DNA from: Phaeobacter gallaeciensis DSM 26640
GTDB lineage: Bacteria > Pseudomonadota > Alphaproteobacteria > Rhodobacterales > Rhodobacteraceae
DNA length: 64,000 nt
Reading direction: 5' to 3'
Assembly (NCBI RefSeq): GCF_000511385.1
Contig: NC_023138.1
Location: 62,001 to 126,000, forward strand
Each line of letters opens with the position of its first letter. Position 1 is the stretch's first letter. Shown piece after piece: positions 27,254 to 46,856 of this stretch. The position numbers and the translations under genes were made by a program. The notes under the pieces are model-generated. The model had not been told where the DNA came from. It was given only the letters and a program-made list of their open reading frames with translations, and searched no databases.

Positions 27254-29386
27254 GTGACTGATCATGTAAAACGACCCCGTTTCCTTCAAAGCCTGATTGC
27301 AGAGCGATGGGATCACTGTGGCGCGCAGACGCAGAATTTTGCTGATGCGGCAACCGATCAACCGAATGCTGTGCTTGCCTATGACTGCGATGACGGGACT
27401 CAGGCCGTTGATTTCGCTCGAGCGGTTGGAGGGCCTGCATTGCGGGCATTGGGATTTCAGGATCGCGCGCAGCAACTGCGGGCTGTTGCACGTGTTCTGA
27501 AGGACAACCGCTCTGCACTCTATCGCGAAAGCCTGACCATCGGTGCGACACGGCACGACTGTGCGCTGGATGTTGATGGCGGTATTGCGCGCCTATCGGC
27601 CTTGGCCGGGCAGGCATTGAAGTCACTGCCCAATGCGCCGGTCCTGCACCTTGGGGATGGTATCGGACCGGGCAGCACCACCGGCCGCCAGCAAATCCTC
27701 GCCCCGCTGTCTGGTGTTGCGCTACATATGACAGCGCTGGATAATCCGGTTTCGGGGCTTCTGGAGCAAATCGTGCCGGCACTCATCGCTGGTGTACCGT
27801 GTATTGTGTGTCCCGACCCGGTCACTGCCTGTGTGAGCGAGCGCCTGGTGAAGCTGATCCACGACAGCCAGATCCTGCCCACCGGGGCCTTGCAATTGGT
27901 ATACAGCCCGCCGCTGGAGATTCTGGACAGCCTGTCCGCAGGAGACGCAATCAGCTTTGCGGGATCCCGCAGTACGGCCCAAAAACTACGGCAGCACCCC
28001 GCGGTGGCTGCTGGTCTGGTGCGGTTGCAATCCTGTGAAACAGGTCTGTCTGCAGCCATCCTCGGCAGCGATGTGGCCCCCGGCAGTCAAGAATATCGGT
28101 TTTTCCTGCAGGAAATCCGCAGTGAATTGATCTTGCGGGCCGGTCAGCGGCGTCACGCAGTGCGCCGTATTCTTCTGCCGCGCCACCGTGAGGCCGAGGT
28201 CCTCAGGGATCTGGCGGCAACCCTGGCGGATACTATCGTCGGATTGCCGGATGATGCGGCCACCCAGATGGGGGCGTTGGTCTCACGCGGGCATCTTGAG
28301 ACGGTGCAGAAGGCACTGGATGAATTGCGTCATGGGGCAGAATTCGTATCCGAACCGATTACAACACCGGTTGAGACAGGCGGGGCTTTTCTGTCGCCGG
28401 TGCTGTTGCACTGCGCCCAGCCTGCGAACACGCCTGATGTTCACCATACCTTTGTTCAGGGACCCGTCGCGACGGCTATGGCCTACGACAGCCTATGTGA
28501 CGCCATCGCGCTTGCCAATCTGGCGCCCTGCTCGCGCTACTCAAACGTCTTCACCAACGATAGTCCGCTGGCACAGGAGGCTGCGGCCTGCCTGACATCG
28601 GCGGAAGGTCAGATCCGAATTTGCGGAAGTGATATGGCGCGTCAGGCCTTGGAGATGTCACCGGATCCATCAGTGCCGCGGCTGTTCGCAGCGACGCATC
28701 ACGCACAGGTCTGCGGTGCAGAGGATATTCGCCACGCTGTCGCCGCCTATATGATGCGGACTGAGATACACGCGTCACCACAGCTGCTGACCGCGCTCAC
28801 AGGCCGATGGGTCGAGGGAGCACAGACCAGGCATAACGGACACCCGTTCCGTAAATCTCTGGAAACATTGCGTATCGGAGATCAGCTCATCACTGAAACG
28901 CGACAGATTACCGAACAGGATGTCGAGCAATTTGCCCATTTTACGGGGGATGTTTTCTATGCCCATATGGACCGGGAAGCCGCGCGCACGCACCCGTTTT
29001 TTGACGACCGTGTCGCGCATGGGCAATTGGTGGTTTCTTTTGCGAACGGGCTGCTGGTTGACCCTGCGCCAGGTCCGGTTCTGGCCAATATAGGCTCGGA
29101 CAATCTGCGGTTTCACGCGCCGGTGTATTTCGGCGATTGCCTGCATGTGCGTGTGACCTGCAAGGAAATCACACCGCGCGCCTCTGCCCCCTTTGGGGAT
29201 GTGCGTTGGGACTGTTGCGTTCTGAATGCCTGCGGTGCGGTGGTCGCGCGGTTCGATCTGCTGACACTGGTGATGAAGAGTTGGCCGCCGGTTTCGCAGG
29301 ACAACGTGAGTGACCATAAAGTCGCTCAGCGTACGGGAGCCGCACCTCACAGGGCACAGGACCCGCTTCAGCAACCGGCTGAATAA
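27254..29386 (+). CDS. paaZ2: PaaZ2: hydratase with degenerate aldehyde dehydrogenase domain (TDA biosynthesis)
   Basis: This 710-residue PaaZ-type fusion has an ALDH domain (about 1-520) and a MaoC hydratase domain (about 560-690). The hydratase keeps GDVFYAH and RVAHG with the catalytic Asp and His that open the oxepin-CoA ring. The ALDH site is broken: AGQRRHAVRR at 296-305 puts Arg300 where PaaZ has its nucleophile Cys (AGQKCTAIRR), INAFNFP reads MTALDNP, and VKPAT reads VCPDP. Loss of aldehyde oxidation lets the ring-opened aldehyde cyclise to the seven-membered TDA precursor, as described for Phaeobacter PaaZ2. Start is GTG at 27254 with AGAGGG upstream; an ATG at 27158 is less likely. 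Confidence 0.88.
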   Translation: MTDHVKRPRFLQSLIAERWDHCGAQTQNFADAATDQPNAVLAYDCDDGTQAVDFARAVGGPALRALGFQDRAQQLRAVARVLKDNRSALYRESLTIGATRHDCALDVDGGIARLSALAGQALKSLPNAPVLHLGDGIGPGSTTGRQQILAPLSGVALHMTALDNPVSGLLEQIVPALIAGVPCIVCPDPVTACVSERLVKLIHDSQILPTGALQLVYSPPLEILDSLSAGDAISFAGSRSTAQKLRQHPAVAAGLVRLQSCETGLSAAILGSDVAPGSQEYRFFLQEIRSELILRAGQRRHAVRRILLPRHREAEVLRDLAATLADTIVGLPDDAATQMGALVSRGHLETVQKALDELRHGAEFVSEPITTPVETGGAFLSPVLLHCAQPANTPDVHHTFVQGPVATAMAYDSLCDAIALANLAPCSRYSNVFTNDSPLAQEAAACLTSAEGQIRICGSDMARQALEMSPDPSVPRLFAATHHAQVCGAEDIRHAVAAYMMRTEIHASPQLLTALTGRWVEGAQTRHNGHPFRKSLETLRIGDQLITETRQITEQDVEQFAHFTGDVFYAHMDREAARTHPFFDDRVAHGQLVVSFANGLLVDPAPGPVLANIGSDNLRFHAPVYFGDCLHVRVTCKEITPRASAPFGDVRWDCCVLNACGAVVARFDLLTLVMKSWPPVSQDNVSDHKVAQRTGAAPHRAQDPLQQPAE

Positions 29387-29420
29387 TATATATTAACCAA
29401 CTGATAACAGGACATTTTCA

Positions 29421-30002
29421 ATGACTGACACTGCGACTGGCCCTGCTGCGCGCCCGCGTATCCTGATTGGCGTTACGGGTTCCCTGGATGCCACCATGCT
29501 GCCGCTATACCTGCGGGAGATCAAGAACGAGATCGACTGTGAACTCACCGCGCTGTTTACGCCTACTGCGACGAAATTCGTGAATATGGACGCGGTTGCG
29601 TTGTTTCTGGATCGGGTGATCAGCGGTGATAATCCCAAGGATTGGCCCACCGATAAACCGGGTCGCATTGTTGCGGATCACGATATCCTTGCCATCCTGC
29701 CTACCACCGCGAACACGCTGTCTGCGATAGCACATGGATCCTCGCAAAACCGCCTGACCACAGTAATTCTGGCGGCGACCTTCCCAGTGTTGCTGTTCCC
29801 TGTCATGGGCGGCCCGATGTGGGAAAAGCCGGCGGTGCGTCGCAACGTCTCCCAGCTGCGCGAAGACGGCTATGAGGTGTTTGAACCGGTTTGGCGGGAG
29901 AACTATGATCCGCTGCTGAAGATTCAGCACGGACATCACTCGCTGCCCGATCCGGAGCAGGTTGTGCAGATCCTGCAAAATCGGCTGCCCACAGCCCGCT
30001 GA
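29421..30002 (+). CDS. tdaF: TdaF: HFCD-family flavoprotein (PPC decarboxylase-like)
   Basis: This 193-residue homo-oligomeric flavin-containing cysteine decarboxylase family protein resembles phosphopantothenoylcysteine decarboxylase. Features are ILIGVTGSLDA (FMN-binding start), LPTTANTLSAIAHG (PASANT-like motif) and PVMGGPMWEKP (PxMNxxMW-like). TdaF is required for TDA in Phaeobacter and is thought to act in the sulfur chemistry or late decarboxylation; the step is not settled. AGGA 9 bases before the ATG. It lies 34 bases after paaZ2 on the same strand and is followed by a strong bidirectional hairpin. Confidence 0.88.
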   Translation: MTDTATGPAARPRILIGVTGSLDATMLPLYLREIKNEIDCELTALFTPTATKFVNMDAVALFLDRVISGDNPKDWPTDKPGRIVADHDILAILPTTANTLSAIAHGSSQNRLTTVILAATFPVLLFPVMGGPMWEKPAVRRNVSQLREDGYEVFEPVWRENYDPLLKIQHGHHSLPDPEQVVQILQNRLPTAR

Positions 30003-30025
30003 TGTCGGCCAATAAGGATTTGAAA

Positions 30026-30057
30026 CAATCCGGCGCAGATGCAGCTGCGCCGGATTG
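30026..30057. terminator. Bidirectional hairpin terminator after tdaF
   Basis: CAATCCGGCGCAG-ATGCAG-CTGCGCCGGATTG is a perfect 13-bp stem with a 6-base loop between the convergent ends of tdaF and the small exported protein gene. Confidence 0.75.
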
Positions 30058-30064
30058 CTGCGTA

Positions 30065-30505
30065 TTAGAGCGCATTAATCGTGACCGTAGCTGCAAATAT
30101 CCCGCCCTCTTGACGCCCAAGAACCCGGTGATCCTGTGTGCGAAGGGACACCGTAACCTGATGTTGCCCGGTTGGTAGATGTCTGAGTACGATATCCGGT
30201 TGATAGGCAGTAGCGAGTTTTTTGTTGCCAAGATGAACATGGGCATGCCCCCGAGCCAAGTCGGTGGCATTGCTGACGCAAAGGTCAGTGAACGTAAAAT
30301 TCTCGACCTCGATCCGCAGGCGCCAACCGTCTTCCGCGTTGTAGATGCTGCTGACCTGAAGGTCCGGCTGCGGATGGTGAGCGGGAAGCGTGACAAACAG
30401 TTGAGCGGGCAGGGCCTCCAGCTGTTTGATCTGCGGCAGGCAGGCACAGATGACGATGAGCGGGGTCGCGGCAAGCATGCTGATGTAGAACACTCTTCGC
30501 AGCAT
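30065..30505 (-). CDS. Small exported protein, unknown function
   Basis: This 146-residue protein has an N-terminal membrane/signal segment (MLRRVFYISMLAATPLIVICAC) that could be a lipoprotein signal. A beta-rich domain follows with DGWRLRIEVENFTFTDLCVSN (read in two parts) and GHAHVHLGNKKLATAY. The domain resembles periplasmic copper-chaperone-like or fibronectin-like folds, with His-rich HAHVHLG as a possible metal site, but I cannot name a family. Starts 4 bases after the membrane protein gene, so it is last in a three-gene unit with the haloperoxidase-like gene. Confidence 0.6.
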   Translation of the reverse strand: MLRRVFYISMLAATPLIVICACLPQIKQLEALPAQLFVTLPAHHPQPDLQVSSIYNAEDGWRLRIEVENFTFTDLCVSNATDLARGHAHVHLGNKKLATAYQPDIVLRHLPTGQHQVTVSLRTQDHRVLGRQEGGIFAATVTINAL

Positions 30506-30509
30506 TGCG

Positions 30510-31571: not shown

Positions 31572-31660
31572 AGTCTGGCTCCTTGGCTGGTGGTGGGCAT
31601 ATTCGCAGCAAGCCCCGCAACAGGTGAACCTGCTGCGGGGACCATCTTACCCTGGCGGTG

Positions 31661-32986: not shown

Positions 32987-33059
32987 CGGAGTACCTCGTC
33001 CGTGAAAAGTGCAGCTACAGGTAGAAACGCTTTGACCGTTCGCACAAATCGAAAGTCCC

Positions 33060-33116: not shown

Positions 33117-34574
33117 TTAGAGCATTCCAAGGATATGCCACCACAGCAGATCCAGCGGCGCCAACAGCAGAAGGCTGATGAGGAAGAGGCTGAGACATAG
33201 CCGGATTACCGCCCCCGCCGGCAGGTTTCCGGCCTGAATGGCTGCGATCAGTGGAGGCGCCTGGAACGGAAGGAAGACATTGGAAAAGGCTACAACCTGC
33301 GTCATCAGGACTGTTTCGAGCGGCAGACCAGTAGCGTCGGATAATTCGCCCGCAAGTGGGGTCATCACAGCGGGTACACCGGGTAGGTTTGTTATCATCG
33401 CCACCAGCGTTGACAGGCCAATCAGGATTGATGTGTTCCACACCGGCCAATCCCTAGCGAAGGCGACGGTTCCGGTAATGGCCCCGACTACAGCTTCGCC
33501 AAGTCCTGCGGAGGATATGACGGCGCCGAGGCCCATGATGCCTGCGACAAACAACAAGGCTCCGTAGCTGAGATCAGTGTTGATGCAGCCTTTGCGCGTG
33601 AGATCTGCTCCTGGCAGCAAGCAGATTAATGCAGCTGCCATACCCACCCATGCGGGGGACACCATATGGATCTGGTCGGTTAGCCACAGCACCAGGCACA
33701 ACGCCAACACGATGCTCAACACCCATTCCTGACGGCTAAACGGCGGGGCAGCGGGGGCGACCTTGACACTATGCGGTGGGATGCGGTCTGGAAACATCAC
33801 CATGGCCAACCCGACTAGGACTGCGGATTTCACAACGCCAAGCACTGGAAAATGCAGCAGAAGATAGTCAAAGTAGGAGATATTGATCCCGTAGATGGTT
33901 TCCGACATCCCAACGAGGATCATATTCGGGGCATTCGCCGGCAGAATGGTGAAGGCCGGGGCAAAGGTGCCAAAGGTGGCAACTGCCAGCATCCCTGTCC
34001 GACCGTTTGAGGTAGCGCCGAAACCGACACGCTCCGCCAGTGCAGAGATCACCGGAAGCAGGATCATGATCCGCCCGATGGACGATGGCATCACAAAGGC
34101 CAAAGCCACCGAAAAGACGACGATGCCGGTCAGCAGGCCACCGTAGCTGCGTAGCGGCAGCAACGCGAGAATACCGGCAGCCCGTTTGTCGAGAGTGGTG
34201 TGCTTGATTGCGGCCCCGAGGACCAAGCCACTGAACAAAAGCCAAAACGTCGATGAGTGAAACCCAGAGAAGATGGTTTCAGGCGCTGCGACGCCGAATA
34301 TCACGGCGACCAGAAAAAAGGCCAAAGCAGTCCAATACTCGGGCACAAGACCGGTAGCCCAAAGACCAATCGCACCAATCGAAAGCGCGGCAACAATCAC
34401 CAGATCAGGGGACAGGTACATTGAGGTCGCGAGAGCCGACAGTCCGGCGCAGATTAGGATCAGAACCACTGTCCAAAGGGGGCGACCGTTTCGAAGCAGT
34501 TGTGACAGGGGTCGACCAGCGCCGGTCAATTGGTGTGAAGGGGGTGGCGGGGCTGAGTTACTTTGATCGGTCAT
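33117..34574 (-). CDS. SLC13/DASS-type anion permease
   Basis: This 485-residue protein has a hydrophilic Pro-rich N-terminus and about twelve membrane segments. FSGFHSSTFWLLFSGLVLG and the second-half PAVMTPLAGELSDATG, FLPFQAPPLIA are typical of the SLC13/CitMHS permeases, which import sulfate, dicarboxylates or organic anions with Na+. Substrate is not evident; within a cluster that needs sulfur, a sulfur-containing or carboxylate anion is an attractive guess. Its upstream region is shared divergently with trmO and contains several palindromes. Confidence 0.8.
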   Translation of the reverse strand: MTDQSNSAPPPPSHQLTGAGRPLSQLLRNGRPLWTVVLILICAGLSALATSMYLSPDLVIVAALSIGAIGLWATGLVPEYWTALAFFLVAVIFGVAAPETIFSGFHSSTFWLLFSGLVLGAAIKHTTLDKRAAGILALLPLRSYGGLLTGIVVFSVALAFVMPSSIGRIMILLPVISALAERVGFGATSNGRTGMLAVATFGTFAPAFTILPANAPNMILVGMSETIYGINISYFDYLLLHFPVLGVVKSAVLVGLAMVMFPDRIPPHSVKVAPAAPPFSRQEWVLSIVLALCLVLWLTDQIHMVSPAWVGMAAALICLLPGADLTRKGCINTDLSYGALLFVAGIMGLGAVISSAGLGEAVVGAITGTVAFARDWPVWNTSILIGLSTLVAMITNLPGVPAVMTPLAGELSDATGLPLETVLMTQVVAFSNVFLPFQAPPLIAAIQAGNLPAGAVIRLCLSLFLISLLLLAPLDLLWWHILGML

Positions 34575-34716
34575 GTGTCTGAAGGTCCTCTGATCATGGG
34601 TCAGGTCCCGATATGCCGCCCGTTAGGGGGCTGAAGCCAATCGATTTATCAGAGACGGGGTCTCATAAATTCCAAACCCTCTGCTGGCCCCAGGGTTTCA
34701 ACTTTACAGGCCCCAG

Positions 34717-34735
34717 ACCTCAGAATTTCTGAGGT
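34717..34735. promoter_or_regulatory. TCAGA-type palindrome 3 between permease and trmO
   Basis: ACCTCAGAA-T-TTCTGAGGT is a perfect 9-1-9 inverted repeat. Its 17-bp core matches 15 of 17 positions of the site at 27080 and also contains T-N11-A. Confidence 0.6.
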
Positions 34736-34871: not shown

Positions 34872-35330
34872 ATGACTGATACGATGCAACTTCTGACAGT
34901 GCCCTCCGAGGCGTTTGAGATCAGGCCAATTGGTGTAATCCGCACCGGGTTTGAAGAGGTCAGAGATTGCCCGATGTCTGGACGTCGCAATCCAACCACC
35001 AGCCGGATTGAGTTGGGCCCTGAATACCACGATGCGCTACAGAATATCGAATTGGCCTCCCATCTTTGGGTGCTCTATTGGCTGCATAAATCCGACCGCA
35101 CTGCGCGAGTACGGCAGGCGCGGGAAGGTCAGATTGCACGCGGGGTTTTCGCCAGCCGGGCGCCAAACCGTCCCAACCCCATTGGTCTGAGTGCGGTTCA
35201 GTTGCTGGACCACTCCGATGGGGTCCTGACGATCAGCGGGCTGGATTGCATTGACGGCACCCCGGTTGTGGACCTGAAACCCGTCGTCCCACAGGAAGAT
35301 GCCCGCCTGGATGCCACCATCGGTTGGTAG
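34872..35330 (+). CDS. TrmO/TsaA-type tRNA (m6t6A37) methyltransferase
   Basis: This 152-residue SAM-dependent enzyme is of the TrmO (YaeB/TsaA) family, which methylates t6A37 in tRNA-Thr(GGU). Hallmarks are IRPIGVIRTGFE at the start and GVFASRAPNRPNPIGLS in the middle, with DGTPVVDLKP later. It is shorter than E. coli TrmO (about 235 residues) and lacks the C-terminal domain. Stand-alone short TrmO-domain proteins also occur with metal or metallophore transport genes; here it lies 42 bases upstream of an ABC importer on the same strand. A role other than tRNA methylation is therefore possible. Confidence 0.85.
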   Translation: MTDTMQLLTVPSEAFEIRPIGVIRTGFEEVRDCPMSGRRNPTTSRIELGPEYHDALQNIELASHLWVLYWLHKSDRTARVRQAREGQIARGVFASRAPNRPNPIGLSAVQLLDHSDGVLTISGLDCIDGTPVVDLKPVVPQEDARLDATIGW

Positions 35331-38022: not shown

Positions 38023-38832
38023 ATGCTGCTGACATCGCGACGGAGGCCGCTTCTCGCGGCAGTCATCCTGCTGTGCCTTGGCATCTGGCTAGCTGGGGCA
38101 GGTGGGTTGCTCGAATATCGTATCAGCAAAGAGGTGCTGGCGCCGCCAGGGCTGGGGCATTGGCTGGGCACAAATGAGATCGGGCAGGACGTGTTGACGG
38201 GGCTGATCCTTGCCACGCCGACCACGCTAACGCTGGCCTTAGCAACAGCGCTGGTGACGGTGAGCCTTGCCGTGGGTGCTGCAAGCCTTGTGGTGTTCGG
38301 CGGCTCGTTTTTATCGGCGCTTGTATTGCGGTGTGTGGATATATTGCAGGTGGTTCCGACCATGCTGCTTCTCCTGCTTATTGCGGCATTGGTGAGCCCT
38401 GGCTTCATGGCCTTGTTTCTTCTGTTGGTACTAACAGGTTGGAGCGACGACGTGCGGGTGGCCGCGGCGGTTCTGCGGCGAGAAGCTCTGCGCGAAAATG
38501 TTCAATATGCCCGCGTGATGGGGGCAGGGTGGGTCTATTGCTGGCGCTGGCATCTTTTTGCAGCGCTGCGCCCACTTTTGGGTGCCCTAATGGTGCAAAA
38601 CATCAGACAGGCCGCGTTGAAGTCCGCGGGTCTGGCGTTTTTGGGCCTGACGGACCCGCGGCTATTAACCTGGGGGAGCATGATGCAATCTGCAATGGAT
38701 CAGCTCTATACCGATGCTTGGATCTGGCTCCTGTTGCCGCCGGCGGCGCTTTTGTCGCTGCTGTTACATGCGACACTGACACAGGGTGACCGGCGCTTGC
38801 GCTCTGCCGCGGTTTTAGGACCTGCATTTTGA
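38023..38832 (+). CDS. ABC importer permease (DppC/NikC type)
   Basis: This 269-residue second permease is shorter than typical DppC. It has GHWLGTNEIGQDVLTGLI (the conserved FGTDxxGRDVxSR-like stretch) and the coupling loop YARVMGAGWVYCWRWHLF, then AALKSAGLAFLGLTDP. The ATG follows the previous stop directly. It pairs with the upstream permease to form the channel. Confidence 0.87.
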   Translation: MLLTSRRRPLLAAVILLCLGIWLAGAGGLLEYRISKEVLAPPGLGHWLGTNEIGQDVLTGLILATPTTLTLALATALVTVSLAVGAASLVVFGGSFLSALVLRCVDILQVVPTMLLLLLIAALVSPGFMALFLLLVLTGWSDDVRVAAAVLRREALRENVQYARVMGAGWVYCWRWHLFAALRPLLGALMVQNIRQAALKSAGLAFLGLTDPRLLTWGSMMQSAMDQLYTDAWIWLLLPPAALLSLLLHATLTQGDRRLRSAAVLGPAF

Positions 38833-40325
38833 TCCGGGTCGATAAACTCTGTCTCTGGCATGGGCCCCGCGTGATCTTCCGGAATGTCTCCTTTGAGGTA
38901 CCCAAAGGGCAGACATTGGCACTGCTCGGGGCCTCCGGCAGCGGTAAAACCTCGCTGGCGCGGCTGTTGCTCGGTGTGCTGCCAGGCCGTCATGTGGATA
39001 TGGTTGATCAAAACGGGGACGGGTTCAGCTGGTCAGGGAGGGCTGAGGTGCTGGGGGTTGATATGCTACGTGCGCCGCGTGCAGATCAGCGCAAACTGCG
39101 GCGAACGGGTTTAAGCCTGATCGTGCAGGCCCTGTCGGACGCGTTAAACCCGCATCAGACCGTTCTGCAACATGTGGTGGAGCTGCTGCCAAACAGCCGC
39201 CGACGGACCTCCCTGGCTTTGTTATTGTGCAAGCGGTTCAACATTCCAGAGCGCATCCTGCACAGATATCCCGCGACCCTTAGCGGTGGCGAAATCCAGC
39301 GGGTTCTGACAGCGTTGGCATTGGCACGTGATCCGCAGGTCCTGATCCTTGACGAACCTACTGCTGCGCTGGATCACAGCAATCGAACACTGGCAGTTGC
39401 AGCTCTTAGCGCGGGGCAGGCGCAGCGCAGCCAATTGCTGATCACTCATGATCTTGATCTGGCGGGCCAGATGGCAGATCGCATGGTGATCCTGCATGAT
39501 AGACAGCTGGTGGAGCGCGGCGCTGCAGTCGAGATGCTGATGCAACCCGACAGGCGTGCTATGGTCTGCCGCCCGTGCACGACGGCGCCACGGGGCATCG
39601 CCCCGTTGGTTCCAAGGCCAGAACCGCTACCGACGAGCCCGCCGGGGCTGGTGGTTCAGAATCTATCTTACCGACAGGCCGGAACGCAGGTGTTGCGTGA
39701 CATTTCAATTGCAGTCCGGCCGGGACGGTGTCTGGCGGTCTTTGGCCAAAGCGGTGGCGGCAAGTCTACGCTGGCCCGCTTGCTCTGCGGATATGAGCCT
39801 TTGCAGAAGGGTCGTATCTTGTGGCGGCCCCGCAATGATGCTCAGCCTCGGATATGCCACCCACAGGAGTTGGCTTTGGTCGCGCAGCATCCTCATCGGG
39901 CAATGGCGCGACATATGAGTGTGGGGGATGTTCTACACGATGCCCAGCGACTGTTTCGTCGCCTAGGCCGCGCGGGTCGCGATATCGATATTGCAGGGCT
40001 GATGGGGAGAGTCGGCCTGCCGCATTCCAGCGCCTTTTTATCACAGCGCGCAGCGGATCTGTCCGGAGGCGAAGCGCAGCGCCTGATCATTGCACGTGCT
40101 TTGCTATCGCGGCCGCTCTGCATGATTGCGGATGAACCGACGGCATCACTGGACAGCGATACCCGAGATACCATTCTCAACCTATTTAGACGTCTTATGG
40201 CACAGGAGCAGTTGGCTTTGATCGTATTTACTCATGACCCGAAGGTTGCAGTCGCCCTAGGTCATGATATCCGTTTTCTATCGAAGGGGCAGCTGCGCCT
40301 TAGTCCTTCCGACGTTGCAGCTTAG
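38829..40325 (+). CDS. ABC importer ATPase, two NBDs fused (DppD-DppF type)
   Basis: This 498-residue protein carries two nucleotide-binding domains in one chain. NBD1 has Walker A GASGSGKTS and signature LSGGEIQR with ILDEPTAALD. NBD2 has GQSGGGKST, LSGGEAQR and IADEPTASLD. Both look intact. A single fused ATPase is common in glutathione or nickel-peptide systems (GsiA-like). Start TTG at 38829 overlaps the permease stop by 4 bases with AGGA upstream. Its stop overlaps the convergent tdaR3-like gene by 4 bases. Confidence 0.88.
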   Translation: MIRVDKLCLWHGPRVIFRNVSFEVPKGQTLALLGASGSGKTSLARLLLGVLPGRHVDMVDQNGDGFSWSGRAEVLGVDMLRAPRADQRKLRRTGLSLIVQALSDALNPHQTVLQHVVELLPNSRRRTSLALLLCKRFNIPERILHRYPATLSGGEIQRVLTALALARDPQVLILDEPTAALDHSNRTLAVAALSAGQAQRSQLLITHDLDLAGQMADRMVILHDRQLVERGAAVEMLMQPDRRAMVCRPCTTAPRGIAPLVPRPEPLPTSPPGLVVQNLSYRQAGTQVLRDISIAVRPGRCLAVFGQSGGGKSTLARLLCGYEPLQKGRILWRPRNDAQPRICHPQELALVAQHPHRAMARHMSVGDVLHDAQRLFRRLGRAGRDIDIAGLMGRVGLPHSSAFLSQRAADLSGGEAQRLIIARALLSRPLCMIADEPTASLDSDTRDTILNLFRRLMAQEQLALIVFTHDPKVAVALGHDIRFLSKGQLRLSPSDVAA

Positions 40326-40879
40326 CGGTGACTGGAGGCACCCTGTGCCGCCTGCAGCGCGCGCACTTCTGCTGAAAGCCAGTCGAGGTTGTCATCCGCA
40401 ATTCCAAGATTGCGCAAATGATCGGCCGTATTCCACAGATAATCGCAGTTGGGGCCGCGTTCACCGGCTGCATGGGCGATGATCTCCGCCTGTCGTGGCA
40501 GGCTGTGGTTATCATATTGCTCGTGATCCCGATTGACGACATAGGTGAGTGCCTCAACCATTCGACCGTCCGCGAGGGCAAGCGGCGTCGTGATTTCACG
40601 GTACGCGGGATTGAACAGCTCGCGCGCGCGCAGGTCTTTCAGGACCTCTGGTTCCTGACCGGATGGCACCGCCAGGGCGACGCCGTTACAGACCGCGTCT
40701 TCTGCGGCGTCCAATGCAAGCACCAAGCCGGGCTGTGCAAAGGTGCCGCGATAGCGCAGAGAGTTCAGACAGAACCGGCGCTGATAGCCGCTGAGTTGGG
40801 CGGGTAGCTGCTCTGCTGGTTCAAATCCGGGATCCCAGATCAATGATCCATAAGCAAAAACCCAAAGTGTGTCGGACAT
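40322..40879 (-). CDS. tdaR3: Gamma-glutamylcyclotransferase (ChaC-like), TdaR3 candidate
   Basis: This 185-residue ChaC-like enzyme cleaves gamma-glutamyl peptides such as glutathione to 5-oxoproline. The YGSLIW motif (FAYGSLIWDPGF) and RYRGTFAQPGLVLALD are visible. In Phaeobacter TDA producers a gamma-glutamylcyclotransferase, TdaR3, gives resistance to TDA, an antibiotic acting as a proton antiporter, through the gamma-glutamyl cycle. Position at the end of the tdaE side matches. An intrinsic terminator separates it from the preceding gene, so it may be transcribed by readthrough or its own start. Assignment as tdaR3 is from family and context. Confidence 0.82.
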   Translation of the reverse strand: MSDTLWVFAYGSLIWDPGFEPAEQLPAQLSGYQRRFCLNSLRYRGTFAQPGLVLALDAAEDAVCNGVALAVPSGQEPEVLKDLRARELFNPAYREITTPLALADGRMVEALTYVVNRDHEQYDNHSLPRQAEIIAHAAGERGPNCDYLWNTADHLRNLGIADDNLDWLSAEVRALQAAQGASSHR

Positions 40880-40957: not shown

Positions 40958-40964
40958 AGGCAGA

Positions 40965-41651
40965 TCAGTCTGTCAGTTGGCGATAGGAGGTCACCAGACT
41001 GCTGTAAGGGGGCACAAAGACTGAACGCGTTTCGTCGCCGATCTGGACCGTTTCCTTGACGTCGAAATGCAGATGGATCGGCAGTTCCGAGATCCAGGAA
41101 TTTGACACTTTGCCAAGGCGATCCCCTTTGGACACCTTGTCCAGTGGGGCAACGGCGAGATCGTCCATATTCATGTGAACGTAGCGGTAGAGCGTGCCGG
41201 AGGGCGTTTGTAAGGTCAGGGCAAAGCGGCCTACATGCGCGATCACACCGTCTTCTACTGCAACTGCCCAATGTGTGTCTGTTTGGCAGGTGGCCGGGCG
41301 AATATCTTGTCCCTGATGGCCGCCGGATGCACAGACCGGCAGGTCTGAACGGCGCAGCTCGCAGAAATTGTCGCGCCACGGATAGCTGTAGTTAACGGTA
41401 TCACACTGGCTTCCGCCATTCCCCTTAAACCCACCAGGCGCATAGACGTGGGAGTTTGCATAGGCCGGTCCACTTTCCAGAGGGAAGCGCATGTCGGGGT
41501 AGAGGACAGCCCCGATCGAAAGGCCAATACCGGTGTCTTTGATCAGGTCGCCGGGCGCCTTGAATCGATCATCTGCAATTGCGGGCGTGACGGCGATCAG
41601 TGCGGAGAGGGCGAGAGCGCCGCAGGCAAGGGTCGTAGAGCTTTTCTTCAT
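40965..41651 (-). CDS. Exported M23-type metallopeptidase, probable TdaR2
   Basis: This 228-residue exported protein (signal to about residue 26, ending TPAIADD) has an M23/LytM-like domain. Zn-binding candidates are GHQGQD, YVHMNM and HLHFDV, matching the HxxxD...HxH pattern of LytM peptidases that cut peptidoglycan cross-links. It lies between the secreted protein and the gamma-glutamylcyclotransferase, and by position corresponds to the TDA-resistance gene tdaR2. I have not confirmed that by comparison. Overlaps the upstream gene by 4 bases (ATGA). Confidence 0.75.
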   Translation of the reverse strand: MKKSSTTLACGALALSALIAVTPAIADDRFKAPGDLIKDTGIGLSIGAVLYPDMRFPLESGPAYANSHVYAPGGFKGNGGSQCDTVNYSYPWRDNFCELRRSDLPVCASGGHQGQDIRPATCQTDTHWAVAVEDGVIAHVGRFALTLQTPSGTLYRYVHMNMDDLAVAPLDKVSKGDRLGKVSNSWISELPIHLHFDVKETVQIGDETRSVFVPPYSSLVTSYRQLTD

Positions 41652-42223
41652 TGTCCCGCTCCCTTCACAACGGTGAGGGACCCGGCCAGTTCGGCAAGGT
41701 AGTCTGGTTTGATACAGCGCACATCCTCGGTCGGCGCATCACAGGTGATCCGCAGGGTGTAGGTCCCTCCAAAGCGGCTGAGCATATGGTCAGCTCCGTC
41801 GCCAGTGGACTCGTAGGACCGGGATTCGTGTTTGAAGGACAGTCCGGGCACGTCCACAAGGTGTGTTCGGCTCCCCATGACACTGACCTGCGCTCCCTCC
41901 AGCTGGTAGTAGGCAGCGTAGGCATTACCCTGCCCACGAAACGCTGGAAGACCGGCAGCAGTATTGGCCCCGAGGATCATGACAGCCATTGCCATATCAT
42001 CAAATCCATCAGGCTCGGTGGCAAGAAACGCAGCCGTGAGGGTTCGATCGTCTGCACTTGCCGCGTCAATTGCAGACGTGGCGGCGGTCCAGTCAATGCT
42101 GCTCACAGCACGTGTCACGTCGGAAGGTTTATCTACCGCAAGGGCAGGGAGTGCCATCAGCGTCAGCGCCGCAGCTGTGGCCGCGACCGCTCCGGCAGCT
42201 TTGGCACAAAGGGATGAGGTCAT
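41648..42223 (-). CDS. Exported protein of unknown fold, probable TdaR1
   Basis: This 191-residue protein has a strong signal peptide (ATAAALTLMALPALAVD) and a mature domain with two or three cysteines near its C-terminus (RITCDAPTEDVRCIKP), probably a disulfide. I recognise no domain. By position it corresponds to tdaR1 of the Phaeobacter resistance set. It starts 39 bases after the end of tdaE and is coupled to the next gene, so the three resistance-type genes follow the biosynthetic operon. Confidence 0.62.
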   Translation of the reverse strand: MTSSLCAKAAGAVAATAAALTLMALPALAVDKPSDVTRAVSSIDWTAATSAIDAASADDRTLTAAFLATEPDGFDDMAMAVMILGANTAAGLPAFRGQGNAYAAYYQLEGAQVSVMGSRTHLVDVPGLSFKHESRSYESTGDGADHMLSRFGGTYTLRITCDAPTEDVRCIKPDYLAELAGSLTVVKGAGQ

Positions 42224-42262: not shown

Positions 42263-43456
42263 CTAGGCGGGTTCCAGCGTTTTGGGTGTCGCGGGATTTG
42301 CGGCTTTCGTGGCCTTGGCGTGCAACCTGGTCATCTGGCCGAAAATGTTGCGACGGTGCATTTCCTCAGTGCCGCCCACGCTGCAAAACGCCAGAGCATC
42401 CCGTAGAAAGGTGGTAATTTGTCCCTCGTGGTAGCCTTTGCTGCCGTAGAGCTTCATCAGCTCCATCGCGCCCTCAACGATGGTTTCGGCACCGACGAGT
42501 TTGGAAATCGAACAGGTCATCGCGGCTTCCGGAGCACCACTGAGCAGTTGATGCAGGGCGCCGTAGGATACCCACTTTGCGCTTTCGGTGCCGATGCGAA
42601 TATCGGTCAGCTTCTTCTGGATGTACTGATGCTCAATGATCGGGACATCAAACGTTGTCCGTTTCTTTGAGAAATCGAATGCCTCAGTAAGCATAGGTTC
42701 AATAAGCCAAGCCGCCACCAGACCATAGTACAGGCGTCCCATGGAGACGATGTTCACAAGGTTACGAAGGCCGGCTCCGGGTTCGCCCAGAAGGTGACCA
42801 TAGTGGAGCGGTACATCATCAAATCGCATTTGGCCGGTCGGTAGGTCCAGATTACCCAGCTTGCGATCCTGCGCACCGATCGTCAGTCCGGGGCTATCGG
42901 CATCCAGTAATACGAGCGAAATGCCTTCGCGGCCGTGGTCACTCAGCTTGCAGACAACAAGAATGAAGCTGGCGACCGGGGCATGCGCGATATTGTATTT
43001 TGCGCCGCTCAAGCGGAAGGTCTCATTGGGGCCTGGGGTTAACAGCGACGATGTTGCCCGCACATCGGTGCCGGTGTCAGGATCCGCAATTGCAGTTGCA
43101 CTCAGCTCCCCATTTAGGATCCGGCCCAAATATTCGCGCTTCTGGCTGTCGCTGCCGTAGAGGTCCAATGCGCGCACCATTCCAGCCTGCGCGATCACCG
43201 ACAGCAACATCCCAGGGGTGCGCAAGGTGGCCGCAAGGCCTTCCAGCGCAGCAGTAAAACCCCACCAATCCCGACCGTCCCCGCCAAACTCGCGCGGCAC
43301 GATCATCCGCCACAAACCAGCGGCGGTCAGCCGATCCCAGGTACGTTGATCAAAAGCGCGCCGCCCCAGATGCAGCTCATCCGGGTCGGCCATTTTCCCA
43401 ATCGCCGCAAAGGCGGTGCGAGTTTGCTGCTGCTCGGCTGTCCAGTTCAATTGCAT
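42263..43456 (-). CDS. tdaE: TdaE: acyl-CoA dehydrogenase-like flavoprotein (TDA biosynthesis)
   Basis: This 397-residue protein is of the acyl-CoA dehydrogenase fold. The N-terminal helical domain, the FAD/substrate block ATAIADPDTGTDVRA and the C-terminal stretch LYGSKGYHEGQ are visible; the latter carries the position of the usual catalytic Glu. In Phaeobacter, TdaE is a flavoprotein dioxygenase that oxidises the seven-membered ring, splits off CoA oxidatively and epoxidises the ring on the way to TDA. GAGG precedes the ATG. Follows tdaD by 23 bases. Confidence 0.9.
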   Translation of the reverse strand: MQLNWTAEQQQTRTAFAAIGKMADPDELHLGRRAFDQRTWDRLTAAGLWRMIVPREFGGDGRDWWGFTAALEGLAATLRTPGMLLSVIAQAGMVRALDLYGSDSQKREYLGRILNGELSATAIADPDTGTDVRATSSLLTPGPNETFRLSGAKYNIAHAPVASFILVVCKLSDHGREGISLVLLDADSPGLTIGAQDRKLGNLDLPTGQMRFDDVPLHYGHLLGEPGAGLRNLVNIVSMGRLYYGLVAAWLIEPMLTEAFDFSKKRTTFDVPIIEHQYIQKKLTDIRIGTESAKWVSYGALHQLLSGAPEAAMTCSISKLVGAETIVEGAMELMKLYGSKGYHEGQITTFLRDALAFCSVGGTEEMHRRNIFGQMTRLHAKATKAANPATPKTLEPA

Positions 43457-43479
43457 GTCTTCGTCCTCACAAACAGGGA

Positions 43480-43896
43480 TCAGGCAGTTTCCTGAAAAGT
43501 CGCAACGCTTTCCTTGAAGGCATCCGGCACCGGATAGGTCGCCTGTTTGTCGTAGTCGAACATCACATGGACAGATTTGGCATTGGCCACGACGCGCCGA
43601 TCGTCGTCGTCGATATGCATCACATGCTCCATCTCGAAGCTCTTACCGCCGAAGCTGATCACCCGGCTGCAAACAACGAGGTTGTCACCATAGAGCGCCT
43701 GAGAGACGTAATCGCAGGAGGTTTTGACCATGATATGCGGCAGCTTCTCGGACTTTGGCAGCTCCAGAAGGTCATGCATGTATTCCAGATAGGCCGACTG
43801 CATGTAGTCGTAGTAAACTGGGCTGCTGACATGCCCCATAGAATCTGTGTCGCGGTAACGGATTTCGACGGGGGTTTCGAAGGCTTTGTTGGACAT
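43480..43896 (-). CDS. tdaD: TdaD: 4-hydroxybenzoyl-CoA thioesterase-family protein
   Basis: This 138-residue hot-dog-fold protein shows the 4HBT family opening ETPVEIRYRDTDSMGHVSSPVYYDYMQSA (the Asp in RDTDSMGH is the expected catalytic/nucleophilic position). The ATG at 43896 has AGGAGG 7 bases upstream, deciding the start over upstream in-frame codons. In the TDA pathway it is required, and is thought to hydrolyse a CoA ester or shape the intermediate pool. Confidence 0.9.
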   Translation of the reverse strand: MSNKAFETPVEIRYRDTDSMGHVSSPVYYDYMQSAYLEYMHDLLELPKSEKLPHIMVKTSCDYVSQALYGDNLVVCSRVISFGGKSFEMEHVMHIDDDDRRVVANAKSVHVMFDYDKQATYPVPDAFKESVATFQETA

Positions 43897-43933
43897 GATG
43901 TCCCTCCTGTTGGTGTAGATTGTCGGGGCAGGA

Positions 43934-44536
43934 TCAGGCGTGCTGGGTGCAGTCCTGGCAGGCGTGTTTTTCCAGCGGACCATGGATGGTAAATCCCATA
44001 GGAACGGGACCAAATTTGCGCAGAATTGGCAGCCCGAATTTCTCGGCCGCGCAGAGCGTGGTGATACAGCCGTCGGCGTGACCCTCGGCGCAGTCCCGCG
44101 CGGCGATGACATTGCTGGAGACAAAGCGTCGCTCAACCGTGATCGGGAGCAGCTTTTCAGGTGCCGGATGGGTCGCGCAGATCTTGGGCTCTGCCCCAGT
44201 GCGGGAGGCGAGGACCATATTGTCGGTGTTCATGATAAACACATCCAACAGCTTCATCTTCTGGATATGGGCGTAGATGATTGAGTGCAGATGTGGATAA
44301 GCCACCACGCCAACCAAAACCGCTCCATCCTGGCAGGCGACACTGTCTGCGGCCTGTTCCATCGTTCGGTGCAGTTTTACCGAAGCACCCTGACACCGGC
44401 GCAATGCCCAGGATAGGGCTGCACGCTCACAATTTGTACCGGCTGGGCCCAGCGTATGAACCTGTTTCACCCAGCCGAATGTTTGGGGGTGCGGAATATA
44501 CTCGGCGTCGGCGTTATTTTCAATTTGAAGATCCAT
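43934..44536 (-). CDS. tdaC: TdaC: prephenate dehydratase-like domain protein
   Basis: This 200-residue protein resembles the catalytic domain of prephenate dehydratase (HTLGPAGTNCERAALSWA near residue 27), without the ACT regulatory domain. Several cysteines occur at the end (HACQDCTQHA). TdaC is needed for TDA in Phaeobacter, and its promoter is the known target of the LysR regulator TdaA. The ATG at 44536 is preferred; an adjacent GTG is one codon earlier. The ribosome site is weak. Heads tdaC-tdaD-tdaE and is preceded by a long, AT-rich leader. Confidence 0.88.
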   Translation of the reverse strand: MDLQIENNADAEYIPHPQTFGWVKQVHTLGPAGTNCERAALSWALRRCQGASVKLHRTMEQAADSVACQDGAVLVGVVAYPHLHSIIYAHIQKMKLLDVFIMNTDNMVLASRTGAEPKICATHPAPEKLLPITVERRFVSSNVIAARDCAEGHADGCITTLCAAEKFGLPILRKFGPVPMGFTIHGPLEKHACQDCTQHA

Positions 44537-44571
44537 CACTCGTCTTTTCCGCTAAATGGTATTGATGGGAG

Positions 44572-44585
44572 GGTATTTTTATACC
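44572..44585 (-). promoter_or_regulatory. Palindrome / possible -10 in the tdaC leader
   Basis: GGTAT-TTTT-ATACC is a 5-4-5 inverted repeat about 36 bases before the tdaC ATG. On the minus strand it contains TATAAA, a possible -10 without a good -35, as expected for an activator-dependent promoter. Confidence 0.35.
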
Positions 44586-44918
44586 TTATTAATTTACCAG
44601 AATTTCATTCGGGTATTCAGATGAGGGTAAGTTTTCATAATTATTGCGGTGGGTTCTTCTTTAAGTTTGAGCTAGCCCTGGGTCACCGTTTCAACGAATC
44701 TGATTTCTTGGTTCTATCGAAACGGTAAAGGCTTCTCGGAACAATTCGAAAAACCTGATGTTGTTCCTCAGCTATGATGATGAATGGGTGATCAGTTCGA
44801 AAATAACTTGAAAAAGCGAAAATTCTCAGTATCGCTCGCGTGTGATATCCAGCTGCTGCTCGATAAATAGGCGAAATGCCGCTCACATAATCAGATCGTC
44901 AGCTTGGAGACAAAAGAT

Positions 44919-44951
44919 AGCCTGCTTCACTCTCGGGAGGCGAAACAGGCT
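44919..44951 (-). terminator. Hairpin downstream of tdaB
   Basis: AGCCTG and CAGGCT form a 6-bp outer stem with extra AAG/CTT-type pairs around a 15-21 base interior; a short T-run follows on the minus strand. It would separate tdaAB transcription from tdaC. Confidence 0.45.
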
Positions 44952-45058
44952 TTGGTCAGTTGGGTATATCTTATAGCTGCCGTCACGGATCTTGAGGTCC
45001 GCGACGACAATACGCCAGAATAATAAGAGGGTAGAAACCACGAAGGCCACTGTCAGCG

Positions 45059-45751
45059 TCAGTTTGGCTGGCCTGGATTCCGACCAACGCCATCGTAAAG
45101 GTCAAGGCAGCGATCAAACCAGTTTGAAACGATACAATCTTTTTCAAACAGAGTGTTAGGTGAGCATACGTTACACCATTGAAGGGTCCCGAAAAGGGTG
45201 AAATCTGCATAGGCAGGCGTCGTCCCCGACAGCCAATCTTGGGTCGCCAGCAGATCGCGTACCGGGGAAAGTTTTTCCGGCAGCAGCGCGCGTTCGGCCT
45301 CACCACCTTCGGCCATAGCCTCAAGTGGCATACCAAACCGGCGTTCGCGTGCAGATCGGAAATAGACCTGGTCAGCCGGTGACATCAGATTATGCATATC
45401 CATGACAGCGATGGTTGCGAGGCTGGGGTGGAGGACGGTCTTACAGTAGCTTTCCACGAAACGAGTCAACGCTACCGCTCCCCTGCCATCAAACAGGGCG
45501 GGGGCATCAGTATAGGTTTCATCGAGATATCGGGCAATGTCGAAACTCTCTCCCAAAACCGTATTGCCATCACGCAGCACAGGAACGCTGCTAAAGCTCC
45601 CATCCTCAATACTTGAGATATCTGCAAAGGAGACCGGGATGAGGTCGTAATCTAGCCTCTTATGATTAAGAGCCATAATGATTTTCCATACATGTGGTGA
45701 GTAGTGACGTTTTCCGTCTTGGCCACATAGGCTGTATAGTTTGCGGTTCAT
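45059..45751 (-). CDS. tdaB: TdaB: glutathione S-transferase-like protein
   Basis: This 230-residue GST-superfamily protein has an N-terminal thioredoxin-like domain (KLYSLCGQDGKRHYSPHVWKI; Ser18 region) and an alpha-helical C-terminal domain. The SVPVLRDG motif (cis-Pro before the sheet) and ESFDIARYLDE are typical. TdaB is required for TDA and is related to beta-etherases; it is proposed to bring glutathione- or cysteine-derived sulfur into the tropone ring. GGAG lies 7 bases before the ATG, and a 7-5-7 palindrome lies just upstream. Same strand as tdaA, 214 bases apart. Confidence 0.88.
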   Translation of the reverse strand: MNRKLYSLCGQDGKRHYSPHVWKIIMALNHKRLDYDLIPVSFADISSIEDGSFSSVPVLRDGNTVLGESFDIARYLDETYTDAPALFDGRGAVALTRFVESYCKTVLHPSLATIAVMDMHNLMSPADQVYFRSARERRFGMPLEAMAEGGEAERALLPEKLSPVRDLLATQDWLSGTTPAYADFTLFGTLQWCNVCSPNTLFEKDCIVSNWFDRCLDLYDGVGRNPGQPN

Positions 45752-45768
45752 CTGTGCGCTCCATGTTG

Positions 45769-45787
45769 AAATTACAGGGGGTAATTT
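45769..45787. promoter_or_regulatory. Palindrome upstream of tdaB
   Basis: AAATTAC-AGGGG-GTAATTT is a perfect 7-5-7 inverted repeat with a T-N11-A core, 17 bases from the tdaB start codon. It fits a LysR-type or repressor binding site but is unlike the TCAGA palindromes. Confidence 0.5.
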
Positions 45788-45965
45788 TGGTTTGGAAACT
45801 GGGAATCAATTCTCAGTAATTGTCGGAACTTTATCCACACAAATGAAATCAGCAATATATTTATTATAATACTCCGAGATCGGCAAAAAGAGCGATATTG
45901 GGGCGCTGGCAAGGGTGAATAGCACCGCTTGGCTGGCAGTCTGCGAGTGTGATTGCGGCGTGATG

Positions 45966-46856
45966 TTAAGCAGAGATAGCCATCTGTTCGGTATTCAGCA
46001 GCTCGCGTACGGCGCTGATAATTGGGTCTTTTGCACGGGACGCCAAATGGGCGAACAGGACCCGTGTGGATTTGCGCACCTCAAGAAGCAGGGTAATATC
46101 GCCGCTCACCGGTTCGGTCCCCGCTGAACTGACGTGAACCAGCCCGATCCCGGCACCGCTTGCGATCAGGGTCCGAGTGATTGTTTCGTCGTCAACATTG
46201 ATGATGCGAGCGGGTTGGATGCCGTTTTCCTTAAACAGGCGCTCTGCGATGCGACCGCAGCATGAACTATACGTTGGATAGATCCAAGGCAGGGCTTCGA
46301 GGCGAGCCCAGTCAAGTTCTGTGCGTTCTGATACCAGATCCGGGGCCGCAGCAAGATAGACGCTGAAGTGAGAGATTTCGAGCGTTTCAAGATCTGTGTG
46401 AGCCTCATCTGGATCAATGAAAAAGCCGGCATCCAGTCGCCCGTTGCGAATATCGTCCAGCACGCTGGAGGATGTGCCATGTTGCAAAGCGACTTCCAGA
46501 TCCGGGAAGTTCTTCGACAGATCTGCGAGCAGGCGGCTCACCTCAGTTGATCCCAGGTTGCGCCCGGCGCCGACCCGTAGCTGACCGGCCAAACGACCAC
46601 GCAGGCGAGAAGCTTCTTCCAAAAACTTCTGGTGATTGTCGAGCAACTGCCGCGCTTCGACCAAGAGCCGCTGACCATCCGTGGTGACGCTCATTCCACG
46701 TGGTGTGCGCTGGAACAATGACAGGCCAAGCGTGTCTTCCATTGTTTTGATATGGGCGCTGACGGCAGGTTGACTGCGAAACAGAAGTTCTGACGCGCGC
46801 GTAATACTTCCCTCCCTTGCCACGGTGACAAAGGTCTTGAGTTGACTGATATCCAT
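45966..46856 (-). CDS. tdaA: TdaA: LysR-family regulator of TDA biosynthesis
   Basis: This 296-residue LysR protein has an N-terminal winged HTH (residues 1-60; LKTFVTVAREGSITRASELL, SQPAVSAHIKTMED) and a periplasmic-binding-type effector domain. It matches the position and type of TdaA, the activator of TDA genes including tdaC in Phaeobacter/Ruegeria. Two adjacent cysteines (YSSCCGR, about residue 200) lie in the effector domain and could be redox-sensitive. It is transcribed toward tdaB. Confidence 0.85.
   Translation of the reverse strand: MDISQLKTFVTVAREGSITRASELLFRSQPAVSAHIKTMEDTLGLSLFQRTPRGMSVTTDGQRLLVEARQLLDNHQKFLEEASRLRGRLAGQLRVGAGRNLGSTEVSRLLADLSKNFPDLEVALQHGTSSSVLDDIRNGRLDAGFFIDPDEAHTDLETLEISHFSVYLAAAPDLVSERTELDWARLEALPWIYPTYSSCCGRIAERLFKENGIQPARIINVDDETITRTLIASGAGIGLVHVSSAGTEPVSGDITLLLEVRKSTRVLFAHLASRAKDPIISAVRELLNTEQMAISA

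Follow-up and report, generated by a model that had tools for sequence, protein, structure and literature searches.

A permease and an ABC importer between the arms of the Phaeobacter tropodithietic acid locus recur with its biosynthesis genes in three other genera

A window of 64,000 nucleotides from Phaeobacter gallaeciensis DSM 26640 (NC_023138.1, positions 62,001 to 126,000), part of a 255-kb contig in an eight-contig genome, carries the genes for tropodithietic acid (TDA) biosynthesis in two arms, with further genes between them. These in-between genes encode an SLC13 permease, an ATP-binding cassette (ABC) importer headed by a TrmO-family gene, a protein resembling vanadium-dependent haloperoxidases (VHPO), and two small proteins. 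We compared them with TDA loci of other genera, and find that the permease and the importer accompany TDA genes in Phaeobacter, Tritonibacter, Epibacterium and Janthinobacterium alike, the four genera that the comparison covers. The locus comprises the following genes:

27254..29386, plus strand: paaZ2, PaaZ-like; TIGR02278 at 589 bits against a cut-off of 563, scored on a longer frame from 27158.
29421..30002, plus strand: tdaF, flavoprotein (PF02441); 66-72% identity to tdaF in the Tritonibacter, Epibacterium and Janthinobacterium TDA loci.
30065..30505, minus strand: small protein, homologue of PGA1_262p00820, without a Pfam family above cut-off; the DUF4399 label is that of PMC13311259.
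30510..31571, minus strand: membrane protein, homologue of PGA1_262p00830, without a Pfam family; the DoxX family label is that of PMC13311259.
31661..32986, minus strand: VHPO-like protein; vanadate-ligand positions kept, PCQHC for PSGHS, N-terminus signal-peptide-like by eye.
33117..34574, minus strand: SLC13 (DASS) permease of a TDA-linked clade (tree support 100/100); PF00939 (Na_sulph_symp) at 87.4 bits against a cut-off of 27.
34884..35330, plus strand: TrmO/TsaA-family protein heading the ABC unit; TIGR00104 at 130.7 bits against a cut-off of 93.25; start by comparison with DSM 17395.
35373..36974, plus strand: solute-binding protein, SBP_bac_5 (PF00496, 214 bits); nearest solved chains Lmo0135 (5isu_A) and NikA (4oer_A).
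36979..38022, plus strand: ABC permease 1 (PF00528, 96 bits); start by comparison with DSM 17395.
38023..38832, plus strand: ABC permease 2; PF00528 at 24.1 bits (cut-off 26.4) and NCBIfam Opp2C at 101 bits (cut-off 300), below both.
38829..40325, plus strand: fused double ABC ATPase, NikD-NikE-like, with two PF00005 stretches.
40322..40879, minus strand: tdaR3, ChaC-type gamma-glutamylcyclotransferase (PF04752, 134.5 bits).
40965..41651, minus strand: tdaR2, M23 peptidase (PF01551, 32.2 bits against a cut-off of 28.7); 56-62% identity to Tritonibacter, Epibacterium and Janthinobacterium.
41648..42223, minus strand: tdaR1, of unknown family, without Pfam match; 42-48% identity to Tritonibacter, Epibacterium and Janthinobacterium.
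42263..43456, minus strand: tdaE, acyl-CoA dehydrogenase family; 98% identity to DSM 17395 TdaE WP_014881725.1.
43480..43896, minus strand: tdaD, thioesterase-like (PF13279); start by comparison with DSM 17395.
43937..44539, minus strand: tdaC; 97.5% identity to DSM 17395 TdaC.
45059..45751, minus strand: tdaB, glutathione S-transferase/beta-etherase-like, with glutathione S-transferase families in Pfam; NF042997 at 152 bits, below its cut-off of 440.
45966..46856, minus strand: tdaA, LysR-type regulator (PF00126, PF03466).

The TDA set is thus complete (tdaA-F, paaZ2 and tdaR1-R3), and the annotations of P. inhibens DSM 17395 and P. porticola show the same gene order. The GTG start of paaZ2 is taken from the DSM 17395 annotation, and its product has Arg at the aldehyde dehydrogenase catalytic Cys position (motif AGQRRHAV), a Cys-to-Arg exchange described in PMC7497051 (papers are cited throughout for the portions of their text available). 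A sequence-only reading of this window had assigned paaZ2-tdaF to a plus-strand arm, tdaA, tdaB, tdaC-D-E and tdaR1-R3 to the minus strand, and a haloperoxidase-like gene, an SLC13 permease and a trmO-ABC importer to the space between; open frames, family matches and annotated relatives put every one of these genes where it had placed them. Its description of the interval itself is amended here, as the space from tdaE to the ABC unit also includes tdaR1-R3, and the tdaF-to-R3 gap of ~10.3 kb contains the VHPO-like gene with its two small neighbours, SLC13, TrmO and a four-gene Opp/Nik-type ABC unit. The split layout was previously in print and is therefore not new: in Table 2 of PMC4278212, 12 tag numbers separate tdaF (00810) and tdaE (00940) in DSM 17395, and 11 lie between the two genes in Pseudovibrio FO-BEG1 (PSE_2247, PSE_2259), while PMC13311259 takes PGA1_262p00820 and 00830 from MIBiG BGC0000932. 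For six Pseudovibrio gene numbers sought in the literature, this table was the sole match. What is new here is the conservation of the in-between genes with TDA loci.

To our knowledge, no TDA exporter has been named. In the pathway, PaaZ2 feeds in the shunt product, TdaE (assayed as the DSM 17395 protein in PMC8283759) cleaves the CoA ester and epoxidises, and the synthesis and addition of the sulfur precursor are tentatively assigned to PatB and TdaB (PMC7497051, PMC8283759). Expression of tdaCDE is iron-repressed and without significant response to nickel or zinc, TDA binds iron, and the transport and uptake of the iron complex are named as future work (PMC13421778). Iron-TDA carriage, sulfur insertion and producer tolerance are described as open or disputed (PMC7497051, PMC13421778, PMC5421792).

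In T. mobilis (loci L006 and L010) and Epibacterium sp. Ofav1-8 (L009) the order is tdaA-B-C-D-E-R1-R2-R3-SLC13-VHPO-DUF2938, followed on the opposite strand by tdaF and paaZ2. Identities to the window in these two genera are 64-65% for SLC13, 58-59% for VHPO and 69-72% for TdaE. The locus of Janthinobacterium sp. ROICE36 is arranged differently, as paaZ2, tdaD, R1, R2, amidotransferase, patB-like, tdaF, tdaB, tdaE and tdaA; its importer stands ~3 kb past paaZ2 on the same 74,137-base contig, and its SLC13 gene (56-58% identity) lies close to the end of a different contig. In G786, a second genome of that genus, everything is found on one 6.3-Mb contig, in the order SLC13, ~0.2 kb, tdaA, tdaE, tdaB, tdaF, patB-like, amidotransferase, R2, R1, tdaD, paaZ2, ~3.3 kb, importer. 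In both genomes the gap from paaZ2 to the importer contains a tetrapyrrole-methylase-family gene (in ROICE36 at 4867-5628 of L074). Both Janthinobacterium loci also feature tdaR1 (42-44% identity to the window) and tdaR2 (59-62%), and the ChaC-type tdaR3 was not found in the stretches examined (60 kb in G786); this distribution bears on the proton-sink resistance model disputed by PMC5421792. The N-termini of TdaR1 and TdaR2 appear signal-peptide-like by eye, and TdaR2 by eye keeps the M23-like HxxxD and HxH motifs.

The two small genes behave otherwise. The DoxX-like protein has tblastn matches in 57 plasmid records, all Phaeobacter, and the DUF4399-labelled protein has no tblastn match in the Tritonibacter, Epibacterium and Janthinobacterium stretches. 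Neither gene was found outside Phaeobacter, and their place in Tritonibacter and Epibacterium is occupied by the DUF2938 gene. The suggestion of the sequence-only reading that the intervening genes might be conserved with TDA loci therefore holds over the four genera for SLC13, which adjoins the cluster, and for the importer, as far as presence goes; it holds in part for VHPO and TrmO, the former accompanying TDA in three alphaproteobacterial genera and not being found in the ROICE36 genome, and it fails for the DoxX/DUF4399 pair.

To follow these genes more widely, TdaE, SLC13, VHPO and the solute-binding protein were sought in genome samples. At E 1e-60, TdaE was found in five of seven genomes of the window's genus, and in only two of a 394-genome sample, both again of that genus. 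In the class-level genome sample, with four first-look candidates scored per genome, TdaE was likewise found in the window's genus only; the corresponding numbers were mostly four for VHPO, seven for the binding protein and up to eight for SLC13, so few that distant relatives may be missed. A contig scan with two short peptide patterns found three TdaE loci, with no Pseudovibrio record among them, and is not a census (G786 is not among the three). Among viral contigs, 64 pattern matches contained no TdaE relative. In a search of 72,556 plasmid records (E limits 1e-40 to 1e-3), TdaE, SLC13, VHPO, the binding protein and the DoxX-like protein each matched 57 Phaeobacter records; Tritonibacter supplied three records each for the first four and none for the DoxX-like protein. 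Among the matches listed, identities on other plasmids go up to ~43% (SLC13), 37% (VHPO) and 43% (binding protein, Martelella).

SLC13 lies beside TDA genes in Phaeobacter, Tritonibacter, Epibacterium and Janthinobacterium G786 (0.2 kb from tdaA), and is also present in both Tritonibacter/Epibacterium genomes and the Janthinobacterium genome searched. Within the window's genus, SLC13 and the binding protein were each found in three of three TdaE-positive genomes and in neither of two TdaE-negative ones, and the two remaining TdaE-positive genomes carry both. Elsewhere in the family, SLC13 proteins at E 1e-70 occur in 11 of 198 genomes (sampled at about one per genus), nine of them outside the window's genus and at 38-44% identity. 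In a phylogenetic tree, seven TDA-linked rows, two of them from the betaproteobacterium Janthinobacterium, are separated from 12 other SLC13 rows by a branch with support of 100/100, and all 200 bootstrap trees set the TDA group apart on a branch of its own; long branches were flagged (L094 and L096 among them) and may be misplaced. PMC13163973 reports that TDA proteins split between Janthinobacterium and the alphaproteobacteria; the SLC13 tree matches this split and suggests that SLC13 was transferred along with the TDA genes. Our literature search found no paper naming tropodithietic acid, tdaE and a permease together.

Sodium-coupled SLC13/DASS members carry two SNT motifs, and the family includes sulfate carriers. 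In the window protein the motif positions read PSSIGR and TNLPGVP, and SNT was also not seen in any of the 12 non-TDA rows. A sequence search at E 0.001 returned no solved relative, and the motif reading yielded no substrate assignment.

The permease also shares an upstream signal with two other genes of the locus, and a second, palindromic feature lies nearby:

27113..27121, plus strand: WTCGATTKG element upstream of paaZ2.
33045..33053, minus strand: WTCGATTKG element 67 bases upstream of VHPO.
34637..34645, minus strand: WTCGATTKG element 71 bases upstream of SLC13.
27081..27097, plus strand: 17-bp dyad CCTCAGAAATCCTGAGG, upstream of paaZ2.
34718..34734, no strand assigned: 17-bp dyad CCTCAGAATTTCTGAGG, between SLC13 and trmO.

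On the coding strand, WTCGATTKG stands at -71 before SLC13 in five of five taxa and at -67 or -68 before VHPO in the same number; before paaZ2 both Tritonibacter and Epibacterium have it at -67, and three Phaeobacter at -122 to -141 relative to the annotated start. Four copies occur in 41 kb surrounding the T. mobilis locus, three of which are the SLC13, VHPO and paaZ2 sites, and the window contains nine against 3.06 expected. In the taxa scanned, no copy was seen within the 300 bases preceding tdaA, tdaB, tdaC or R3. The dyad, with consensus CCTCAGAANTTCTGAGG, has two sites at up to three mismatches in 244 of the 255 kb of the contig, at paaZ2 and SLC13/trmO, where 0.26 are expected per 64 kb from shuffled windows. 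Since both motifs were found in these very promoters, their statistics are descriptive. Both dyad copies are kept in P. porticola despite drifted flanks; a further dyad before paaZ2 in the window is not, and was dropped. Looser dyads with the core TCAG-N5-CTGA precede paaZ2 of Tritonibacter and Epibacterium. In its T-N11-A form this core agrees with LysR-type sites, and TdaA may be the protein that binds it. It also loosely resembles a predicted tdaC promoter site cited in PMC6224355.

Of the four genera, only Phaeobacter, Tritonibacter and Epibacterium were found to have the VHPO-like gene with their TDA genes. At E 1e-15, VHPO homologues occur in 34 of 394 genomes, with scores of 937 and 914 bits in the window's genus against 129 for the best other, and the two high-scoring genomes are the sole TdaE holders of that sample. 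Of the 32 VHPO genomes outside the window's genus, 28 came with their locus and were compared, and four were not. By alignment the protein keeps K290, R297, H336, R384 and H390, which we take to be the vanadate-ligand positions, with roles as in the Curvularia enzyme. It departs from its relatives at the P-S-G-H-S motif, which reads PCQHC in the five aligned TDA-linked copies and in none of 33 other homologues; all 28 of the family sample have [SA]-G-H-[SA], and none of five plasmid homologues has Cys there. C261 and C431 are invariant in four aligned rows. Structural modelling from the single sequence was too poor for use (mean predicted local distance difference test score 37.5), and the Pfam families DUF6851, VCPO_2nd and PAP2 all fall below cut-off. 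The replacement of PSGHS by PCQHC suggests that the protein may not be a normal haloperoxidase. An ordinary enzyme, producing extracellular hypohalous acid for defence or signal quenching independently of TDA, would explain the five kept ligand positions and a TDA-linked form found only in alphaproteobacterial genera, which we take to be marine; we consider it rather unlikely, because among the homologues compared the Cys motif is confined to the TDA-linked copies and because VHPO shares its promoter element with paaZ2 and SLC13. The proposal that VHPO is needed for TDA was rejected, as the ROICE36 genome has no match while a related strain makes TDA (PMC13163973). In the available literature, one quorum-sensing review mentions both tropodithietic acid and haloperoxidase. 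Separately, a VHPO-like domain was noted on plasmid pNSMS102 of Nostoc sp. MS1, in a nonribosomal peptide/polyketide synthase region; cysE and genes for a ferric-reductase-like protein and a glutathione S-transferase lie close by.

The importer is present in every TDA-positive genome checked and lies near the TDA genes in three of the four genera. The Epibacterium unit (LysR-TrmO-binding protein-permease-permease-ATPase) stops ~1.3 kb short of paaZ2, and a single epimerase-like gene intervenes. In all three alphaproteobacterial genera TrmO is the leading gene of the importer, and no TrmO match was found beside it in Janthinobacterium. An early view of the unit as a Phaeobacter-only insertion, prompted by the first Tritonibacter locus, was ruled out by its presence in all four genera. 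At E 1e-70 the binding protein occurs in two of the 198 family genomes, both of the window's genus, and in none of the 196 from other genera. On plasmids, at E 1e-40, it matches 57 Phaeobacter, three Tritonibacter, two Martelella and one Paenibacillus records. In the Janthinobacterium genus two of 40 genomes, ROICE36 and G786, have it at E 1e-70, and in both the importer stands ~3 kb from paaZ2 of a TDA locus; the TdaE search covered these two of the 40. The Janthinobacterium binding proteins show 35-39% identity.

Two substrates suggest themselves for this importer, whose binding protein, permease 1 and both ATPase domains exceed the Pfam cut-offs for parts of an Opp/Nik-type system, with permease 2 just below its own. 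Among solved structures, the binding protein is closest to Lmo0135 (109 bits) and NikA (99 bits). Lmo0135 is presumably CtaP, which is linked to cysteine uptake. With both proteins nearest, the comparison does not decide between sulfur and metal, and sulfur supply and metal recovery appear about equally likely as importer roles. In the former, the importer would take in cysteine, cystine, glutathione fragments or sulfur-rich peptides for PatB/TdaB, and SLC13 would import sulfate or another anion. The Lmo0135 match, the sulfate carriers of the SLC13 family, the ChaC-type R3 of the window and the patB-like and glutamine amidotransferase genes of the Janthinobacterium loci all agree with this; the nearly equal NikA score, an SLC13 that like its non-TDA relatives lacks the SNT motifs, and the abundance of sulfate in sea water do not, and we regard the proposal as possible but tentative. 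In the latter, metallophore-type uptake would recover iron-TDA or similar complexes. The resemblance of the binding protein, permeases and ATPase to Nik and opine-metallophore importers is consistent with this, as are the iron repression of tdaCDE and the iron binding of TDA, with transport of the complex left to future work (PMC13421778). Peptide importers belong to the same class, however, nickel and zinc leave tdaCDE without significant effect (PMC13421778), and no TonB-dependent receptor is among the Pfam matches between the arms; we regard metal recovery, too, as possible but tentative.

A more general alternative is that the in-between genes have no TDA role and are kept by plasmid linkage alone. 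The window's 20 kb is 100.0% identical to four P. gallaeciensis plasmids, and 57 Phaeobacter plasmid records match the locus, with at least 80% of the 20 kb covered in one place in 53 of them; such near-unchanged carriage is what hitchhiking predicts, as are two small genes limited to Phaeobacter and the separate position of the T. mobilis importer. It does not readily explain why SLC13 and the importer stand beside TDA genes in Janthinobacterium under a different gene order, nor the SLC13 clade, the common promoter element, or the absence of SLC13 and binding protein from the two TdaE-negative genomes of the window's genus. We therefore judge hitchhiking improbable.

Several observations nonetheless weigh against a TDA function for the in-between genes. 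In T. mobilis the importer unit lies ~27 kb from paaZ2, though on the same plasmid or contig. Binding protein identity between Phaeobacter and Tritonibacter is 42%, against 72% for TdaE, and a Martelella binding protein from a plasmid without a TDA gene is equally close (42-46% to Phaeobacter or Tritonibacter). This divergence, with the Martelella likeness, suggests that the importer type may have been recruited more than once or may serve a wider purpose; fast change is a possible alternative. VHPO was not found in the ROICE36 genome. WTCGATTKG was derived from the same promoters in which it is counted, and Epibacterium, examined last, is close to Tritonibacter; the element was not seen before the Janthinobacterium SLC13, the TCAG-N5-CTGA core is absent before the Tritonibacter and Epibacterium SLC13, and where the 300 bases ahead of tdaB or tdaC were scanned, both the element and the dyad were missing (the Epibacterium tdaC start is misplaced). 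Finally, expression or mutant results for the in-between genes were not found in the available TDA literature.

On balance, the stretch between the TDA arms is probably not filler. The in-between genes look like parts of the TDA system because the transporters adjoin the cluster in a distant bacterium and two of the genes have a promoter signal in common with it, and we hold with moderate confidence, from these sequence comparisons, that they constitute an unrecognised transport and envelope part of it. That SLC13 and the importer serve TDA is very likely, and that the VHPO-like gene does so is likely; the roles named for them are each more tentative, ranging from unlikely to somewhat plausible. 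SLC13 would move a pathway organic anion across the inner membrane, exporting TDA or its reduced dithiol or else importing a precursor. The VHPO-like protein would act in the periplasm of alphaproteobacterial producers, in thiol, sulfur or halide chemistry around TDA, without being required to make it. The importer would bring a metal complex, or a peptide or amino acid containing sulfur, into the cell to serve the production or recovery of TDA. An anion permease, a periplasmic redox-type enzyme and a peptide/metal-class importer would together fit the transport gap named in PMC13421778. A more specific version, that SLC13 exports the reduced, multiply charged dithiol form of TDA, and that in alphaproteobacterial producers the PCQHC protein is a vanadium-site enzyme converted to a thiol oxidase by the two cysteines flanking its catalytic histidine and closes the dithiete ring in the periplasm, is a long shot; if true, the toxic product would be finished outside the cytoplasm. 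The comparison supplies named candidate genes in a model strain where genes are routinely removed (in DSM 17395, PGA1_RS18550 for SLC13, PGA1_RS18545 for the VHPO-like protein and PGA1_RS18555-18575 for TrmO-ABC), and the promoter signal predicts their co-expression.

Two neighbouring features were also noted. Next to paaZ2 and divergent from it is an NAD(P)-binding epimerase-like gene, in the window at 25811-26950, in T. mobilis at 29578-30594 of L006 and in Epibacterium at 12920-14011 of L075; it may count as another conserved neighbour across the three genera. Beyond tdaA, at 47125-53760, the window carries a LysR gene and all the genes of a dipeptide-type ABC importer, also annotated in P. 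inhibens and P. porticola; in T. mobilis these do not adjoin tdaA.

Compared with known systems, the window is closest to the DSM 17395 cluster (MIBiG BGC0000932), which has the same genes in the same order over 20 kb at 89% DNA identity. In the available DSM 17395 literature the system comprises tdaA-F, paaZ2 and tdaR1-R3, with the SLC13 permease, ABC unit and VHPO-like gene not discussed. For Janthinobacterium sp. PLB04, PMC13163973 describes tdaA, B, D, E, F, paaZ2 and a patB-like gene, a set also found in ROICE36 and G786; these two add tdaR1, tdaR2, an importer near the locus and, in G786, an SLC13 gene adjoining tdaA, additions that the available text of PMC13163973 does not mention for PLB04. 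The VHPO-like protein resembles vanadium-dependent haloperoxidases (4cit, 1idq) in sequence (E 3e-19 to 4cit) and in its K-x6-RP, H and R-x5-H positions, and differs from them in reading Cys-Gln-His-Cys where the 28 homologues of the family sample read Ser/Ala-Gly-His-Ser/Ala. The importer has its domain make-up and nearest solved relatives in common with the Nik/Opp/Cnt importers and Lmo0135; it falls below the cut-off of each NCBIfam model listed, and is set apart from those importers by a fused double ATPase, a TrmO gene in front, and linkage to TDA.

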